Under the pieces are notes generated by a model that made no database searches, was not told the DNA's origin, and was given only the letters and a program-made list of their open reading frames with translations. A program made the translations under genes and the position numbers. From positions 1 to 43,648 of the forward strand of contig JAUVLU010000022.1 in assembly GCA_030600585.1 (NCBI GenBank): DNA of 43,648 nt, read 5' to 3'. Below, in pieces: positions 1,512-43,638 of this stretch. The number at the start of each line of letters is the position of its first letter. The first letter of the stretch is position 1. The stretch comes from Candidatus Cloacimonadota bacterium (lineage in GTDB: Bacteria > Cloacimonadota > Cloacimonadia > Cloacimonadales > TCS61).

Positions 1512-1677
1512 TCATAAGAAGCCGTTGGAAGAATTGATTTGAGATTTTCGATTAACAATTATACGATTTGAGAATTAAAAATTCTGTCTTTCCGTCAAAA
1601 GCCGGACACAGTCTGAGGATTGTCAGCCTAAGGCTGATAAAAACATACATAGACATTCGACGACTTGTCACGGCGTA

Positions 1678-2108: not shown

Positions 2109-3929
2109 ATGAACTTTAAAGAGAAAGCAAATTTGATCTGGAGTGTTGCAGATTTACTTCGTGGTGATTACAAACAATCTGATTACGGAAAGGTGATTTT
2201 ACCGCTAACCGTTTTGAGACGTTTGGATTGCGTCCTTGCTCCGACAAAACAAAAAGTGTTAAATTATCTGCCAAAAATAAAATCGTCCGCAACTGACAGC
2301 ACGAAAGATTTGATTCTAAATAGTAAAGCTGGTCATAATTTTCATAATCGAAGCCAATTTGATTTTGCAAAACTAAAAGCTGACCCAGATAATATTGCAG
2401 CAAACTTAAGAAATTACGTTACTGGTTTTTCTGCAAGTGCAAGAGAAATTATTGAATATTTCAATTTCGATGACCAAATAGAAAGAATGGACAATCCGCA
2501 AGCCGATATTCTTTTTCAGGTAATTACAAAATTTGCTGAGATTGATCTTTCCGATATGGAAAGTATGGAAATGGGATATGTTTTTGAAGAATTAATAAGA
2601 AGATTTTCCGAGCAATCTAACGAGACAGCAGGAGAACATTTTACTCCAAGAGAAGTAATAAAACTAATGGTGAACCTTCTCTTCATCGCTGATAATGACA
2701 TTCTAACAAAAGATGGAATTGTAAAAACTTTATACGATCCTGCTTGCGGAACAGGTGGAATGCTTTCGGTTGCAGAAAAACATCTTAATGATTTTAACAG
2801 CAAAGCAAAACTTGAAGTATTCGGTCAGGAGATAAATCCTGAATCTTACGCAATCTGCAAATCCGATATGCTGATAAAATCTCAAAATCCTTCCAATATT
2901 AAATTCGGAAATACATTTACCTTTGATGCACTTTATGATGAAAAATTTGATTATATGCTCTCAAATCCTCCCTTTGGTGTAGATTGGAAAAAAGCAAAAA
3001 ATATCATTAAAGCTGAATTTGATAACAAAGGATACTCAGGCAGATTCGGTGCAGGTTTACCAAGAATTAATGATGGTGCACTACTCTTTCTGCAACATAT
3101 GATTTCCAAAATGAAACCAAGCGGAACCAGAATAGGAATTGTATTTAACGGTTCACCATTATTTACGGGACAAGCAGGAAGCGGTGAAAGCAACATCCGA
3201 AAGTGGATAATTGAAAACGATTGGTTAGAAGCCATTATTGCTCTTCCCGACCAGCTCTTTTATAATACGGGAATTTCAACTTACATCTGGATTCTTAACA
3301 ACAACAAAGATCACGAACGAAAAGGAAAAATCCAACTGATCAATGCAACAGGTGCAAAAGATGATGAATTGATAAAAGGTGTAAAGACGCAAGATATTGC
3401 GTCTCTGACAGAAAACCGTTTCTATGAAAAGATGACCAGAAGTTTGGGAAACAAAAGAAAGAAAATTGCAGAAAACGGAGAAGAAAAAGGAATCGGATTC
3501 ATCACAAAACTTTACGGTGATTATGTAGAAAATGAATTTGTGAAAATTTATCCGAATGAATTTTTTGGTTATCAAAGAATTACTGTTGAGCAACCCCAAA
3601 AAGATGAGAACGGTAAGATTATCCGAGATAAAAAAGGAAAACTAAAACCTGACGCAACTTTAAGAGATTATGAAAATATTCCATTCCTAAAGAAGCAAAA
3701 AGACGGAAAATTAGTTCAGCAAACTATCGCAGAATATTTTGAACGAGAAGTTGTTCCGCATCTTCCAAATGCTTGGATAGATAAAAGCAAAACAAAAATC
3801 GGTTATGAAATAAATTTCACAAAATACTTTTATGAATTCAAAAAACTTCGTTCGCTTACAGAAATAAAAGCTGACATTTTGGCATTGGAAGAAGAAACTG
3901 CAAACCTTGAAAAAGGTGTTTTATTATGA
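2109..3929 (+). CDS. hsdM: Type I restriction-modification DNA methyltransferase subunit (HsdM)
   Basis: The 606-residue protein is an N6-adenine methyltransferase subunit. The N-terminal HsdM_N helical domain opens with KANLIWSVADLLRGDYKQSDYG (20 or so residues; the key part is SVADLLRGD). The SAM-binding motif I DPACGTGG is at 210-217 and the catalytic motif IV NPPF at 286-289. The C-terminal region (about 450-606) ends in a coiled coil that should contact HsdS. With HsdS it modifies the target site, and with HsdR it restricts unmodified DNA. AAGGA about ten bases upstream supports the ATG. The stop overlaps the next start (ATGA). Odd: codons around 3385-3404 contain a perfect palindrome, described separately. 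Confidence 0.95.
   Translation: MNFKEKANLIWSVADLLRGDYKQSDYGKVILPLTVLRRLDCVLAPTKQKVLNYLPKIKSSATDSTKDLILNSKAGHNFHNRSQFDFAKLKADPDNIAANLRNYVTGFSASAREIIEYFNFDDQIERMDNPQADILFQVITKFAEIDLSDMESMEMGYVFEELIRRFSEQSNETAGEHFTPREVIKLMVNLLFIADNDILTKDGIVKTLYDPACGTGGMLSVAEKHLNDFNSKAKLEVFGQEINPESYAICKSDMLIKSQNPSNIKFGNTFTFDALYDEKFDYMLSNPPFGVDWKKAKNIIKAEFDNKGYSGRFGAGLPRINDGALLFLQHMISKMKPSGTRIGIVFNGSPLFTGQAGSGESNIRKWIIENDWLEAIIALPDQLFYNTGISTYIWILNNNKDHERKGKIQLINATGAKDDELIKGVKTQDIASLTENRFYEKMTRSLGNKRKKIAENGEEKGIGFITKLYGDYVENEFVKIYPNEFFGYQRITVEQPQKDENGKIIRDKKGKLKPDATLRDYENIPFLKKQKDGKLVQQTIAEYFEREVVPHLPNAWIDKSKTKIGYEINFTKYFYEFKKLRSLTEIKADILALEEETANLEKGVLL
3385..3404. repeat. Palindromic element inside hsdM
   Basis: Arms AGACGCAA and TTGCGTCT (8 bp, perfect) flank the loop GATA. 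The element lies wholly within hsdM codons and reads through in frame as roughly KTQDIAS. AGACGCAA...TTGCGTCT hairpins are, from memory, common dispersed intergenic repeats in several bacterial groups. Finding one in a coding frame suggests an insertion the protein tolerated. The site lies in the C-terminal part, after the catalytic motifs. Confidence 0.6.
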
Positions 3930-4951
3930 AAAACAAAATCATAAATAAACAGGATTTAATAGGTAATGAGCTGCAATTCAGATATATTATTGATTTGATT
4001 GCTCAGACAAAACAGCGAGTATATAAAACAGCAAATACACAACTAATTGATCTGTATTGGAGTATCGGAAAATATCTGCATAAGCAAGTCGAAGAGAACA
4101 GTTGGGGAAAATCGATAATTAAACAACTCTCACAATTTATTCAAGATTCACATCCGAATATAAAAGGATTTTCCTCCCAGAATTTATGGCGAATGAAGCA
4201 ACTTTTTGAATATTATAAAGATTTTCCAAAACTCTCGACGGTGTTGAGAGAAATCCCTTGGTCTCATAATATACGGATTTTATCTTCTGCGAAAAGTGTT
4301 GAGGAAAAAGAGTTCTACATTCGATTGGCAATAAAGGAACGGCTTTCTTTCAGAGAATTGGAAAGGCAAATTAATAGTTCTTATTTTGAAAGAGTGATGT
4401 TAGGAAATTCAAAACTCTCAACAGTGTCGAGAGAATTGCCGCAGAATATCACCAATGTATTTAAAGATACTTATGTTTTGGAAATGTTTCAACTTCCATC
4501 GTCTCATTCCGAAAAAGATTTGAAACATAAAATATGCAAAAATATTAGTTCCTTTTTACTTGAATTCGGTCGTGACTTTGCCTTTATGGGTGAAGAATAT
4601 CCTCTTCAAGTAGGAAATCAGGATTTTGCAGTCGATTTACTTTTCTATCACAGAAACTTACAGTGCTTAGTGGCAATTGAATTGAAAACTGAAAAATTCA
4701 AACCTGCACATCTCGGACAACTGAACTTTTATCTTGAAGCCCTCGACCGTGATGTAAAAACACCAACAGAAAATCCGAGCATTGGAATTTTGCTCTGCAA
4801 AGGAAAAGATGATATTGTTGTGGAATATGCTTTAAGTAGAAATCTTTCTCCCACTCTAATTGCCGATTATAAAACACAACTGCCAAATAAAAAATTGCTC
4901 CAACAAAAATGGCAGGAAATTTTGGAACAATTTGATAACAGTGATGATTAA
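3926..4951 (+). CDS. DUF1016 (YhcG-type) protein with PD-(D/E)XK nuclease domain
   Basis: The 341-residue protein belongs to the YhcG/DUF1016 family. The N-terminal part (about 15-180) has the family's helical DUF1016_N features, including LYWSIGKYLHKQ, FSSQNLWRMKQLFEYY and PWSHNI. The C-terminal part is a PD-(D/E)XK nuclease fold, with D237 in AVDLLFYHRNL and E252-x-K254 in AIELKTEKF. The family often sits beside or inside type I R-M operons. Its role there is not settled; nuclease activity is inferred from the motif. It overlaps hsdM by four bases and hsdS begins within its stop codon, so it is a full member of the operon. Two copies of one palindromic element are embedded in its frame (4232-4250 and 4415-4433). 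Confidence 0.9.
   Translation: MKNKIINKQDLIGNELQFRYIIDLIAQTKQRVYKTANTQLIDLYWSIGKYLHKQVEENSWGKSIIKQLSQFIQDSHPNIKGFSSQNLWRMKQLFEYYKDFPKLSTVLREIPWSHNIRILSSAKSVEEKEFYIRLAIKERLSFRELERQINSSYFERVMLGNSKLSTVSRELPQNITNVFKDTYVLEMFQLPSSHSEKDLKHKICKNISSFLLEFGRDFAFMGEEYPLQVGNQDFAVDLLFYHRNLQCLVAIELKTEKFKPAHLGQLNFYLEALDRDVKTPTENPSIGILLCKGKDDIVVEYALSRNLSPTLIADYKTQLPNKKLLQQKWQEILEQFDNSDD
4232..4250. repeat. Palindromic element in the DUF1016 gene, copy 1
   Basis: CTCTCGAC-GGT-GTTGAGAG: 8-bp arms with one G-U wobble. It is translated as part of LSTVLREI. The reverse complement of the second copy (4415-4433) matches this one at nearly every base, so the two are inverted copies of one element. Confidence 0.65.
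4415..4433. repeat. Palindromic element in the DUF1016 gene, copy 2 (inverted)
   Basis: CTCTCAAC-AGT-GTCGAGAG, translated as part of LSTVSREL. It is the inverted counterpart of the copy at 4232-4250. Because the element is nearly self-complementary, both orientations encode a similar LSTVxRE peptide in this frame. Confidence 0.65.
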
Positions 4952-6282
4952 TGAAAAAATACGATAAATATAAAGACTGCGGAATTGAATGGATTGGAGA
5001 AATTCCTGAACATTGGGAAGTGAAGAAGTTAAAATATATTGCTAAAATTAAGACAGGATATACACCGTCAAAAAATGATGCAGCAAATTATTCTGATGAT
5101 GGGACAATTTGGGTAAAGCCTGATATTTTAAATCAATTTGTTTCAATTACTAATTCCAATGAGAAGATTTCAGAACAAGGAATTAAGAGACAAAATATTA
5201 TTCCAAAAGGTTCTGTTTTAGTTTGTTGTATTGGGTCAATTGGTAAGTTTGGAGTTGCAGGAATTGATTTAGTAACAAATCAACAAATAAATTCATTGAT
5301 TTTCAAACATTATGTGATTTCTGATTTTGGTAAATTTATTATTTCAGCGTCCAAGTTTGAGCATATTAAGCAAGCAAATGGTAATGTAGTTAAAATATTA
5401 AATACAGAAGGACAAAGTAGAATTGTCTTTGCCATCCCATCCAAACCAGAACAAACCGCAATCGCCAACTTCCTTGACCGCAAAACAGCAGAAATAGATA
5501 ACTTGATTACCCAAAAAGAAAAACTGCTCAAACTCTACGATGAAGAAAAAACTGCCATAATCAACCAAGCTGTTACAAAAGGTGTCCCTCGTAAAGACGG
5601 AAAATCTTCCGTCTCCTTTAAAGACAGCGGTGTTGAATGGCTGGGTCAAATTCCTGAGCATTGGGAAGTGAAGAGAGTTAAGCATTTATGTTATGTAAAG
5701 GGTCGTGTTGGTTGGAAAGGATTAAAATCAAGCGAATTTTTGCAAGAAAGTTATTCATATTTAGTAACTGGAATTGATTTTAAAACAAGTAGAATAAATT
5801 GGAAAAACTGTTATCAAATCGATAAAGAAAGATATGAAGAAGATCCATATATTCAATTAAAAAATTACGACTTACTAATTACAAAAGATGGAACAATTGG
5901 TAAACTTGCAATTGTAGAAGATTTAAATAAACCTGCTTGTTTAAATAGCGGAATTTTTGTTGTTAGATCTTTATTAAATTCTTTTTCGACAGAATTTCTG
6001 TATTGGATTTTATTTTCTAATGTTTTTAAGAAATTTAATTCTTATACTTCTTATGGTTCTACAATTCAGCATTTATATCAGAATGTTTTTATAGAATTTG
6101 CATTTGGAGTGCCAAATATTGAAGAACAAACCGCCATCGTCCAACACATCGAAACCAAAACAAACAAAATAAATACCAAAATAACCAAAACCGAGAAATT
6201 AATTGAATTATTGAAAGAATACAAAACCGCTTTGATCAGCGAAGTGGTAACAGGGAAAATTGATGTGAGGGAAGAAAAATGA
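4951..6282 (+). CDS. hsdS: Type I restriction-modification specificity subunit (HsdS)
   Basis: The 443-residue protein has the classic two-fold HsdS layout. Target-recognition domain 1 (about 10-165) opens with GIEWIGEIPEHWEVKKLKYI. A conserved helical region follows (PEQTAIANFLDRKTAEIDN onward, about 165-215). TRD2 (about 225-385) opens with GVEWLGQIPEHWEVKRVKHL. A second helical region starts at EEQTAIVQHIE. Each TRD reads one half of a bipartite DNA site and the helices set the spacing. The start overlaps the preceding stop (TAATG). The DNA encoding the two half-starts is strongly similar, which could allow recombination between halves. A palindromic element lies in the linker before TRD2. 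The recognition sequence cannot be read from the protein. Confidence 0.95.
   Translation: MKKYDKYKDCGIEWIGEIPEHWEVKKLKYIAKIKTGYTPSKNDAANYSDDGTIWVKPDILNQFVSITNSNEKISEQGIKRQNIIPKGSVLVCCIGSIGKFGVAGIDLVTNQQINSLIFKHYVISDFGKFIISASKFEHIKQANGNVVKILNTEGQSRIVFAIPSKPEQTAIANFLDRKTAEIDNLITQKEKLLKLYDEEKTAIINQAVTKGVPRKDGKSSVSFKDSGVEWLGQIPEHWEVKRVKHLCYVKGRVGWKGLKSSEFLQESYSYLVTGIDFKTSRINWKNCYQIDKERYEEDPYIQLKNYDLLITKDGTIGKLAIVEDLNKPACLNSGIFVVRSLLNSFSTEFLYWILFSNVFKKFNSYTSYGSTIQHLYQNVFIEFAFGVPNIEEQTAIVQHIETKTNKINTKITKTEKLIELLKEYKTALISEVVTGKIDVREEK
4972..5033 (+). repeat. hsdS half-repeat, first copy
   Basis: This codes for the entry to TRD1. The 62-bp segment is roughly four-fifths identical at DNA level to 5620-5681, which codes for the entry to TRD2. 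Such internal repeats in hsdS are known substrates for domain shuffling. No recombinase gene is adjacent here. Confidence 0.6.
5595..5614. repeat. Palindromic element in the hsdS inter-domain linker
   Basis: AGACGGAA-AATC-TTCCGTCT has 8-bp perfect arms and is translated as part of KDGKSSVS. It has the same AGACG(N)AA...TT(N)CGTCT plan as the element in hsdM (3385-3404). It sits between the first helical region and TRD2, where extra residues are probably harmless. Confidence 0.6.
5620..5681 (+). repeat. hsdS half-repeat, second copy
   Basis: This codes for the entry to TRD2 (KDSGVEWLGQIPEHWEVK) and is the partner of 4972-5033. It begins six bases after a palindromic element (5595-5614), so a hairpin sits right at the junction between the two halves of HsdS. 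Confidence 0.6.
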
Positions 6283-6299: not shown

Positions 6300-6316
6300 G
6301 GTGACAATTTGTCACC
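6300..6316. repeat. Inverted repeat between hsdS and hsdR
   Basis: GGTGACAA-T-TTGTCACC: 8-bp perfect arms around a single base. It lies in the 109-bp hsdS-hsdR gap, which is itself framed by imperfect inverted ends (AACCACGAAAAGCAAGAC at 6282-6299 and GTCTTGGTGTCTTTGTGGTT at 6351-6370). The whole gap may be one dispersed hairpin element. It is too short and loop-poor to judge as an operator, and no T-run follows. Confidence 0.55.
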
Positions 6317-6391: not shown

Positions 6392-9379
6392 ATGACTAAA
6401 ATAACATCCGAGAAAACATTTGAATCAGCAATCGTTGAATCATTAATTGAAAATGGTGGATATTCCCAAGGGAATTCAGAACAATATTTTCCCAAACTGG
6501 GAATGTTCAAATATGAGATTTTATCTTTCTTACAAAATTCTCAACCAGAAAAATGGGAGAAAATTATTGCTGTTCACGGTGTAGATGATGTTGGTGACAG
6601 AATTATCGGACGCATAAATAAAGAGATGGATTTGCGAGGAAGCCTCGATGTTATCCGCAACGGTTTCACGGATTACGGAGTTCGCTTCAAACTTGCTTTC
6701 TTCCAACCCGAAACTGGCTTAAATCCTGAAACTGAGATTCTTTATAACAAGAATCAATTAAAAGTATATCGTCAGGTTTATTACAGCGATAAGAATAAAA
6801 ATTCCGTTGATCTCGTAATTTCATTGAACGGAATTCCCGTTGCCACGATAGAATTAAAAAACCGCTTTACAGGGCAAAGCACAGCCAATGCCAAAAAGCA
6901 ATATAACACAACCAGAGATTTTAGAGAACTGCTTTTTAAATTTAAGAAAAGAGCGTTAGTTCATTTTGCCGTTGATGACGAAGAAGTTTTTATGACAACC
7001 AAAATTGCGGGAGAGAAAACTTTCTGGCTACCGTTTAATAAAGGCAATAATAAAGGAAAAGGAAATCCCATAAATCCTGATGGCTACAAAACAGATTATC
7101 TTTGGAAAGATATTTTGGTGAAAGATAGTTTCTTGGAAATCATTCAACGTTTTATTCATCTACAAAAAGAAGAGATTGAAATTGACGGTAGAACTTTCAA
7201 CAAAGAAAAAATGATATTTCCTCGTTATCATCAACTTGATGTCGTAAAAAAAATTACAGCAAATGCCAAGGTGACAGGAGCAGGGAAAAATTATCTTGTT
7301 CAGCATTCGGCTGGTTCGGGCAAAAGTAATTCCATTGCCTGGCTTGCTTATCGTCTTTCCAGTTTGCATAATAAATTTGATGAGCGAATTTTTGACAGCG
7401 TAGTGGTTGTTACAGATCGTCGAGTTTTAGATCAACAATTACAAAATACGATCTATCAATTTGAGCATAAAACAGGAATCGTTAAGAAGATCGATAAGAA
7501 CAGTCAACAGCTTGCAGATGCTATTTCTGCAGGCTCTCACATAATCATTACGACATTACAGAAATTTCCGTTTGTGATAGATAAAGTGGGTTCTCTTCCA
7601 AACAAAAAATATGCTGTAATAATCGATGAAGCTCACAGTTCTCAAGGTGGAGAAGCTCATAAAAAGATGAAGGAAGTTTTATCTTCTGCAAACGATAATA
7701 TTGAGGAAGAGGAATTTACTGCTGAAGATTTTATTTTGGAACAAATTGAAAGATCGGCAAAAGCTCGTGGACTGCAAAAGAATATTTCTTTCTTTGCATT
7801 TACGGCAACACCAAAATATAAAACGTTGGCGATTTTCGGAGAGAAGACAGGAGACGAGAAACCGCAACCTTTCCATTTATATTCAATGCGTCAGGCTATT
7901 GAAGAAGGTTTTATTTTAGATGTTTTAGAAAATTATACGACTTATGAATTGTTCTTTAAACTATCTAAAGTAATTGAAGATGATCCCAAATTGAATAAGA
8001 AAAAAGTGGCTCGTGCGATTGGTCGCTTTGTTAATTTTCATCCGCATAATTTAGCGCAAAAAGCAGAAATTGTAATTGAGCATTTCAAACAAGTTGTCTC
8101 ACACAAAATCGGTGGAAAAGCCAAAGCAATGTTTATAACTTCTTCTCGTAAACTTGCCAAAAGATATTATGAAGAATTCAATAAATACATCAAATTAAAA
8201 GGTTACACGAACGAGATTAAAATTTTGGTCGCATTTTCGGGAAAAGTTATTGATGATAATTATCCTGACGGAGTTTCCGAACCTGAACTTACTGGATTCA
8301 GCGAAAGCGAACTGCCGAGAGTCTTTAACAAAAATGAATACAAAATTTTGATAGTTGCCGATAAATATCAGACAGGTTTCGATCAGCCAATGTTGCACAC
8401 AATGTATGTTGATAAAAAACTTTCGGGAGTTAGAGCCGTTCAAACGCTTTCCAGACTGAACAGAACAGCACCGGGAAAAGAAGATACATTTATTCTGGAT
8501 TTCGTAAATGACAGACAAACAATTTTAGAAGCTTTTCAGGAATATTACGAAAGAACAATTGTATCAGAAGAACCGAAAATAAATCATCTTTACGATCTGA
8601 AAGCAAAATTGGACGAAAAGCAGATTTATTGGAATTCGGAGATTAATGCTTTTGCGAATCATTATTTTAAATCTTACGGAAATTTTACAAATAAAGATCA
8701 AGCTCGTCTTTATTCTTTTATCGATCCTGCTGTTGATAGATTCAACGCACTCGAAGAACAAGAAGAAAAAGATGAATTCAAAAAAAGCCTGAGAACTTGG
8801 CTAAATCTTTATGCTTTTTTTGCTCAAATTATGCCTTTCAAAGAATCCAATTTTGAAAAGTTTTATGCTTACGGTAAACTTCTTCAAACTAAATTGCCCA
8901 AACCTGACATTTCAGAACAATTAAAACTGATCGATGAAATAGCTCTGGAATATTATCGTTTGCAAAAAATCAAAGAAGGCTCAATCGAATTATCAAAAGG
9001 TAAAGATGGTGAATTAGACGGTGTTTCGGAAGCTGGTATAAAAAGAGCAAAAGAAGAAAAAGCACCGTTGTCTGAAATCATTGATATTTTGAATGAACGA
9101 TTCGGAACAGAATTTGAAGAAGCTGATAGACTGTTCTTTGAGCAAATTGAAACGGAACTTATTCAAGATGAGAAATTACAAACTCAAGCACGAGCCAATA
9201 AAATGGACACTTTCAAATATGCTTTCGACGATATGTTCTTTAATAAATTGATCGAGCGAATGGAACAAAATCAGGACATCTTCGATAAAATTGTGGAGAA
9301 CAAACCTTTCGGTAATCTGGTTCGAGAATTGATGTTGAAAAAGGTTTATCTGAAGTTGAATGAAGAGATTGCGAAATGA
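6392..9379 (+). CDS. hsdR: Type I restriction endonuclease subunit (HsdR)
   Basis: The 995-residue translocating endonuclease matches the length of the EcoR124-type R subunits. The N-terminal nuclease domain has D140 in VDLVIS and E154-L-K156 in ATIELKN (PD-(D/E)XK). The SF2 helicase motor has Walker A SAGSGKS at 306-312, DEAH at 412-415, motif III AFTATP, and motif VI-like VQTLSRLNR. A helical C-terminal region mediates binding to the HsdM-HsdS core. It cleaves DNA after ATP-driven translocation from an unmethylated site. AAGGAATAAAG upstream provides the ribosome-binding site. It is last in the operon and intact, so the system looks functional. Confidence 0.96.
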   Translation: MTKITSEKTFESAIVESLIENGGYSQGNSEQYFPKLGMFKYEILSFLQNSQPEKWEKIIAVHGVDDVGDRIIGRINKEMDLRGSLDVIRNGFTDYGVRFKLAFFQPETGLNPETEILYNKNQLKVYRQVYYSDKNKNSVDLVISLNGIPVATIELKNRFTGQSTANAKKQYNTTRDFRELLFKFKKRALVHFAVDDEEVFMTTKIAGEKTFWLPFNKGNNKGKGNPINPDGYKTDYLWKDILVKDSFLEIIQRFIHLQKEEIEIDGRTFNKEKMIFPRYHQLDVVKKITANAKVTGAGKNYLVQHSAGSGKSNSIAWLAYRLSSLHNKFDERIFDSVVVVTDRRVLDQQLQNTIYQFEHKTGIVKKIDKNSQQLADAISAGSHIIITTLQKFPFVIDKVGSLPNKKYAVIIDEAHSSQGGEAHKKMKEVLSSANDNIEEEEFTAEDFILEQIERSAKARGLQKNISFFAFTATPKYKTLAIFGEKTGDEKPQPFHLYSMRQAIEEGFILDVLENYTTYELFFKLSKVIEDDPKLNKKKVARAIGRFVNFHPHNLAQKAEIVIEHFKQVVSHKIGGKAKAMFITSSRKLAKRYYEEFNKYIKLKGYTNEIKILVAFSGKVIDDNYPDGVSEPELTGFSESELPRVFNKNEYKILIVADKYQTGFDQPMLHTMYVDKKLSGVRAVQTLSRLNRTAPGKEDTFILDFVNDRQTILEAFQEYYERTIVSEEPKINHLYDLKAKLDEKQIYWNSEINAFANHYFKSYGNFTNKDQARLYSFIDPAVDRFNALEEQEEKDEFKKSLRTWLNLYAFFAQIMPFKESNFEKFYAYGKLLQTKLPKPDISEQLKLIDEIALEYYRLQKIKEGSIELSKGKDGELDGVSEAGIKRAKEEKAPLSEIIDILNERFGTEFEEADRLFFEQIETELIQDEKLQTQARANKMDTFKYAFDDMFFNKLIERMEQNQDIFDKIVENKPFGNLVRELMLKKVYLKLNEEIAK

Positions 9380-43594: not shown

Positions 43595-43638
43595 TTATTA
43601 TTCGTGTATTGGCGATATCGCCAATACACGAATAATAA
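43595..43638. repeat. 44-bp perfect palindrome near the window end
   Basis: Left arm 43595-43616 (22 bp, core ATTCGTGTATTGGCGAT) and right arm 43617-43638 are exact reverse complements with no spacer, centred on GAT|ATC. No T-run follows on either strand. Ten bases of A/T-rich sequence follow to the window end. It may be a true cruciform-forming site, or a fold-back artefact at a contig edge. Confidence 0.85.

Follow-up and report, generated by a model that had tools for sequence, protein, structure and literature searches.

The CGTC-tagged repetitive extragenic palindromes (REPs), a super-family reported from Bacteroidetes and Spirochaetes whose copies can lie inside genes (Di Nocera et al. 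2013, PMC3733652), have a stem of 8-9 bp and a loop of 4-5 bases (PMC3733652), and Rickettsia palindromic elements are ~100-150 nt long (PMC4316617). Sites read by a protein can also lie in coding sequence, as shown in M. bovis BCG, where parA contains parS (PMC2346475); in ParB, R173 contacts guanine, and Noc has Gln in its place (PMC7383237). Here we analyze in-frame hairpins in three successive genes of a type I restriction-modification (R-M) locus, hsdM, a DUF1016/YhcG nuclease gene and hsdS, in a Candidatus Cloacimonadota bacterium (contig JAUVLU010000022.1; the window is the whole stretch analyzed, 43,648 nt). A sequence-only reading had ascribed the four hairpins to one active family of small palindromes that inserts into proteins. 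Comparison with homologues indicates instead that they are two unrelated phenomena, superimposed: the DUF1016 nuclease very probably recognizes a palindrome maintained within its own gene, and the hsdM and hsdS hairpins are insertions. The features concerned are as follows.

2109..3929, + strand: hsdM, type I R-M methyltransferase subunit (Pfam N6_Mtase and HsdM_N; PADLOC MTase_I)
3384..3404, + strand: palindrome inserted in hsdM, seven codons AAG ACG CAA GAT ATT GCG TCT (KTQDIAS) in a variable loop; the hairpin proper, 3385-3404, is AGACGCAA-GATA-TTGCGTCT with perfect 8-bp arms
3926..4951, + strand: DUF1016/YhcG-type PD-(D/E)XK nuclease gene (Pfam DUF1016_N 2.9e-40, YhcG_C 1.7e-56; PADLOC PDC-S02; AlphaFold2 predicted local distance difference test (pLDDT) 85.8)
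4178..4180, + strand: codon of Q85, first recognition-helix residue, in the GFSxxNL motif, with covariation at half-site position 7
4232..4250, + strand: DUF1016 palindromic site 1, near-perfect hairpin CTCTCGACGGTGTTGAGAG, centre 4241, 18 nt before the codon of invariant W112, the family-wide position
4352..4354, + strand: codon of R143, in the WSxR motif of the second helix-turn-helix, with covariation at half-site position 2
4415..4433, + strand: DUF1016 palindromic site 2, near-perfect hairpin CTCTCAACAGTGTCGAGAG, centre 4424 (+183 from site 1), a matching copy of site 1
4634..4687, + strand: catalytic PD-(D/E)XK residues D237, E252 and K254
4951..6282, + strand: hsdS, type I R-M specificity subunit (Pfam Methylase_S)
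5595-5614, + strand: hsdS hairpin AGACGGAA-AATC-TTCCGTCT, perfect 8-bp arms

All of the hairpins named within the three genes are found in the sequence, perfect in hsdM and hsdS and near-perfect in DUF1016. The inverted orientation described for the DUF1016 pair also holds, as 17 of the 19 bases of each match the reverse complement of the other. The sequence-only reading had further proposed that the hairpins add peptides in frame, to be checked by aligning homologues. The alignment bears this out for HsdM and HsdS and rules out an insertion in DUF1016, where homologues have aligned residues at both sites, an outcome that the sequence-only reading had itself named as refuting its proposal. For example, the 78% identical protein of L073 has KLLTLLRE and KLSTVSRE at sites 1 and 2, and those of L058 and L062 have KVSPLVRQ and KVSPLVTQ.

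A palindrome is nevertheless present in most DUF1016 homologues, in the majority of cases at these codons and each time with other letters. At site 2, L058 and L062 carry perfect palindromes whose sequences are quite different (GTGTCACCACTGGTGACAC and GTGTCACCAGTGGTGACAC), and site 1 is repeatedly palindromic in distant homologues with unrelated letters, such as AATTGTGTCAGCACTGCTGACACAATT in L121. When the centre was held 18 nt ahead of the W112 codon, at least 9 of 13 pairs were formed in 59 of 101 homologues, compared with 4.4 under a null of synonymous-codon recoding. The same test gave 47 of 63 in a viral and plasmid gene set (null 4.3) and 78 of 122 in a set from new genomes (null 7.0). 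When any site from -90 to +12 nt around W112 was allowed, 245 of 285 genes reached at least 9 of 12 pairs (null 29.8), 186 at least 10 of 12 (null 5.5), and 54 were perfect at 12 of 12 (null 0). Extra copies of a gene's own palindrome also occur nearby (38, versus 0.9 for the palindromes of other genes). They lie at +183 in 13 genes, the window's included, at ~-108 in seven, and in a few cases at the start codon or just past the stop. There was no clear excess of distinct palindromes among the paralogues of one genome, which gave no backing to selection for such differences. By these comparisons, a palindrome inside the DUF1016 gene is a feature of most members of a widespread family, including E. 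coli yhcG.

Further support for a protein-DNA relationship is provided by covariation between the identities of residues and of half-site bases, after a correction for overall identity. Two pairs came out on top, 143-2 (residue 143, half-site position 2) and 85-7 (residue 85, position 7). In an independent set, 85-7 ranked first and 143-2 second of 3492 pairs, and all seven pairs named beforehand fell within the top 77. R85 goes with G at position 7 and K85 with C, and this holds at bases that leave the encoded residue unchanged. On the coding strand, position 7 is the wobble base of codon W-9. Where this codon is valine, R85 genes use GTG (45:2) and K85 genes GTC (20:0; P=4e-15), and leucine at W-9 splits 16:0 for R85 versus 0:8 for K85, all of these counts being non-independent by descent; elsewhere in the genes the GTG share is 0.55 in both groups alike. 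On the tree there are 38 changes in the class of residue 85 and 47 in the base, yet only 54 when the two are counted jointly, and 12 of 15 close pairs with R and K at residue 85 are concordant. The rule also follows the palindrome when it is relocated within the gene (73 genes), with G7 in 38 of 39 cases for R85 and C2 in 48 of 49 for R143, and the +183 copies obey it as well. In the window, both sites have C7, alongside Q85, and C2, alongside R143, in agreement with most other Q85 genes.

The predicted structure places these residues on recognition-type helices. The AlphaFold2 model of the N-domain is all-helical (pLDDT 94), with residues 85/89 and 142/143 at the start of the second helix in two helix-turn-helix-like pairs, and site 2 lies in the stretch for the low-confidence linker that joins the N- and C-domains. 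The C-terminal domain is similar to PD-(D/E)XK nucleases, EndoMS/NucS among them, and Foldseek matches to the whole model cover the nuclease domain only; a sequence search of the PDB gave no match to the DUF1016 protein. The protein has both DUF1016_N and YhcG_C domains and the conserved D...(E/D)xK of the family. D237 and K254 are invariant across all 169 ungapped homologues, residue 252 is either E or D, and genes that carry the palindrome keep the catalytic residues.

In E. coli K-12 MG1655, yhcG contains three palindromes in frame, which are spaced 39 nt apart and lie at positions 315, 354 and 393 of the gene. A 31-mer palindrome is present in 3523 of 5426 genomes, once in almost every carrier. 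The yhcG allele of E. coli strain 103 differs from that of K-12 mainly in the stretch of the recognition helix and palindrome, the nuclease domain being nearly identical (alleles at L416:1123-2250 and L417:801-1913), a pattern that looks like the exchange of a specificity cassette.

Overall, conservation and covariation make it very probable that the DUF1016 nuclease recognizes the palindrome inside its own gene. Its N-terminal domain, with two predicted helix-turn-helix units, would read one half-site of a ~27-bp palindrome, and two subunits would cover both halves. Selection would hold the palindrome in the coding sequence, with base changes tracking changes in the recognition residues. The nuclease might then bind its own gene as a road-block and limit its own transcription, and a site carried within the gene would move with it into any operon, for example hsdM-DUF1016-hsdS. 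Autoregulation of this kind would be the simplest and likeliest use and would suit a gene that sits in the operons of others, and we put its chances at about even.

Several observations weigh against self-recognition in this form. About 14% of genes have no site of at least 9 of 12 pairs in the scanned stretch. Only ~3-5 of 192 genes carry a copy that lies on or ahead of the estimated start codon, and a promoter operator is therefore not the rule. The coupling of residue 143 with position 2 is largely at the level of clades. K-12 yhcG, as read from the sequences, combines K85 with C7 at one site and G7 at two, so the residue-base code is not absolute. Finally, ParB and Noc rank first in the Foldseek search with the N-domain, but with E values of 0.35-2.6 and a template modelling (TM) score of ~0.36 the similarity is not significant.

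The strongest competing explanation accepts that the protein binds the site but for an end other than repression: the nuclease would load or cut at its own gene in order to act on extra copies, or on rival elements, that share the allele, or the site would serve ParB-like nucleation. We regard this as possible, though less probable than a road-block. A self-targeting or nuclease-loading role is suggested by sites that lie nearly always within the gene rather than at the promoter, together with a nuclease that looks active. The many distinct DUF1016 paralogues per genome, the concentration of E. coli allele differences in the recognition segment and the weak fold similarity to ParB/Noc also favor it. 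However, an active nuclease that cut its own gene would need protection, and none was identified. By a related and equally tentative proposal, the fast-diversifying palindrome may be both cognate site and self-recognition mark rather than a plain operator, serving for example to act on same-allele copies or to load the nuclease at its own locus. If so, the gene would be self-addressed, the specificity of its protein and the target evolving together as a single cassette.

Since the palindrome lies within the transcript and could fold, it might instead act as an mRNA hairpin in translation or mRNA decay. Mismatches in the palindrome show no wobble signature, however, with G.T and A.C about equally frequent (9 versus 12); this lack of a G.U preference points to duplex DNA rather than an RNA hairpin. 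The symmetry often reaches the central base, the bases covary with helix-turn-helix residues, and there was no accepted Rfam match in the region. A role as RNA is thus very unlikely.

The hairpins in hsdM and hsdS are of another kind. In an alignment of 93 homologues, the HsdM hairpin peptide is an insertion that, besides the window, only L041 and L064 have, and close homologues are without it. Where L009 reads GTA-CTC, the window reads GTA-AAGACGCAAGATATTGCGTCT-CTG, a gain of seven codons. The insert of L041, a Spirochaetales metagenome-assembled genome (MAG), encodes VKTQSIAS, and in L064, a Bacteroidales MAG, a second palindrome (TGTAGAGGCGCACGGCCGTGCACCTCTACA) appears from its sequence to be nested within the loop of the first. 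The three carriers do not form a clade, so either the loop received several hits or the insert has been lost or exchanged. A single origin is unsupported, since the tree below their common ancestor takes in 38 of 94 tips. The hsdS hairpin is an insertion, net five codons, in the inter-domain linker, where VPRKDGKSSVSF stands against an LDPNVPM-like segment of seven residues in most homologues. HsdS of L064 has the same linker insertion with another perfect palindrome, its inner bases altered on both arms (CGGCCG for AAATCT). At the same position the HsdS linker of L045 contains a different insertion, PPLKGDKGGC, possibly from another repeat family, and the linker is a possible hot spot for insertions.

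The inserts are about 20-28 nt long. Perfect related palindromes such as AGACGCACGGCCGTGCGTCT are repeated in Bacteroidales genomes, some of them in frame in other genes, and several dispersed copies are present in the genomes of L064, L073 and L038, compared with two in the window genome. The Bacteroidales palindrome is also found in frame elsewhere in HsdM, after YENIPFL (L064:7601 and L427:1501). In the Bacteroidales genome of L064, AGACGTAACATGTTGCGTCT occurs 12 times within 9 kb, partly at ~200-base spacing (G484:C100:50926-59989). The hairpins in hsdM and hsdS would therefore be passenger insertions of a short dispersed Bacteroidota palindrome, taken up in frame by R-M genes at tolerant loops. 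The genes would have entered this genome afterwards, probably bringing the elements with them.

These copy numbers bear on the sequence-only proposal that all four hairpins belong to one mobile palindrome family active in this genome. The hsdM and hsdS hairpins are indeed in-frame insertions. They share GTAAAGACG-N10-CGTCTC, which has no other occurrence in the 2.58-Mb genome, and a looser search with their sequence gave fewer matches than the control. With only two places in the genome, this palindrome is not an active local family, and a dispersed repeat is ruled out by the counts. The DUF1016 palindrome (up to three mismatches) likewise has two genome copies, both in the DUF1016 gene; its sites are not insertions and its sequence is unrelated to that of the hsdM/hsdS pair. 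One active family is accordingly even less likely than an RNA hairpin. Least credible of all is that coevolving amino acids happen to spell palindromes: non-synonymous positions do carry part of the symmetry, but the synonymous-codon null is far exceeded and the residue 85 rule works at a synonymous base and at relocated sites that code for other residues.

The insertions, the conservation of the palindrome and the residue-base covariation are shown by the sequences, from which we infer that the DUF1016 protein would physically bind its site, dimerize and repress. The combined reading, passenger insertions in hsdM and hsdS together with DUF1016 self-binding sites, is likely.

The window has further features. 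The sequence-only reading had also linked hairpins in nearby spacers to those in the genes; the one at 6300 is perfect and the one at 1807 weak, having only the letters GTAAAGACG in common, and neither matches the hsdM/hsdS pair or the DUF1016 pair.

6300-6316: perfect hairpin GGTGACAATTTGTCACC in the spacer between hsdS and hsdR, a third sequence with no relation to the other hairpins
6392-9379: hsdR, assigned from place and sequence only

A scan of the window for hairpins (arms of at least 8 bp, loop 1-5, guanine-cytosine content at least 40%) gave 10 matches, terminators counted among them, compared with 0.6 in shuffles (maximum 3). A perfect 44-bp palindrome at the contig end (window 43595-43638) is possibly an assembly artefact. 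Between clpX and hsdM, at window 1585-1655 (+), lies an RNA resembling the Type-P3 twister ribozyme (RF03154), which scores 30.6 bits (E 0.0022 in 5.3 kb) and so falls short of the gathering score, 39.9.

Nucleases of the DUF1016/YhcG type occur widely, on chromosomes, plasmids and phages as well as next to type I R-M genes, and the literature searched gave no function for them. They now gain a predicted DNA target together with a code that relates residues to bases (R85 to G, K85 to C, R143 to C2/G2'), and the three palindromes of K-12 yhcG make self-recognition directly testable. The palindromes represent a DNA-level constraint within coding sequence across distant lineages that could mislead codon-based and RNA-hairpin analyses. 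The hsdM and hsdS inserts add to the cases in which a short palindrome lengthens the product of a mobile R-M gene by a peptide and probably travels with the gene between phyla.

Compared with known systems, the hsdM/hsdS elements resemble CGTC-tagged REPs in size (~20-28 bp), 8-bp stem, 4-base loop and in-frame copies in genes, a likeness by these features only. They differ in that CGTC-tagged REPs have many dispersed copies per host and the hsdM/hsdS palindrome has two in the genome. Rickettsia palindromic elements, the precedent cited by the sequence-only reading, serve as an analogy, being in-frame palindromes that add peptides. Membership is not indicated, the present inserts being ~20-28 nt long and in another lineage, with no sequence relation shown. 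The DUF1016 protein is a full member of the YhcG/DUF1016 group (PADLOC PDC-S02) by Pfam, PADLOC and catalytic residues. We found no literature link of this group to a cognate DNA site or to its own intragenic palindrome, subscription papers and preprints being outside the search. Unlike ParB/Noc, DUF1016 has a PD-(D/E)XK nuclease and a site in its own gene that varies from gene to gene. An N-terminal CTPase domain was not found in the protein; Pfam gives DUF1016_N and YhcG_C only, and the model has a long helix instead. In ParB/Noc, a palindromic site (parS or the Noc-binding site, NBS) is read by a helix-turn-helix with few specificity residues, and for DUF1016 the covariation points to recognition of a palindromic site. 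The change from R173 in ParB to Gln in Noc is a close parallel to residue 85 of DUF1016.

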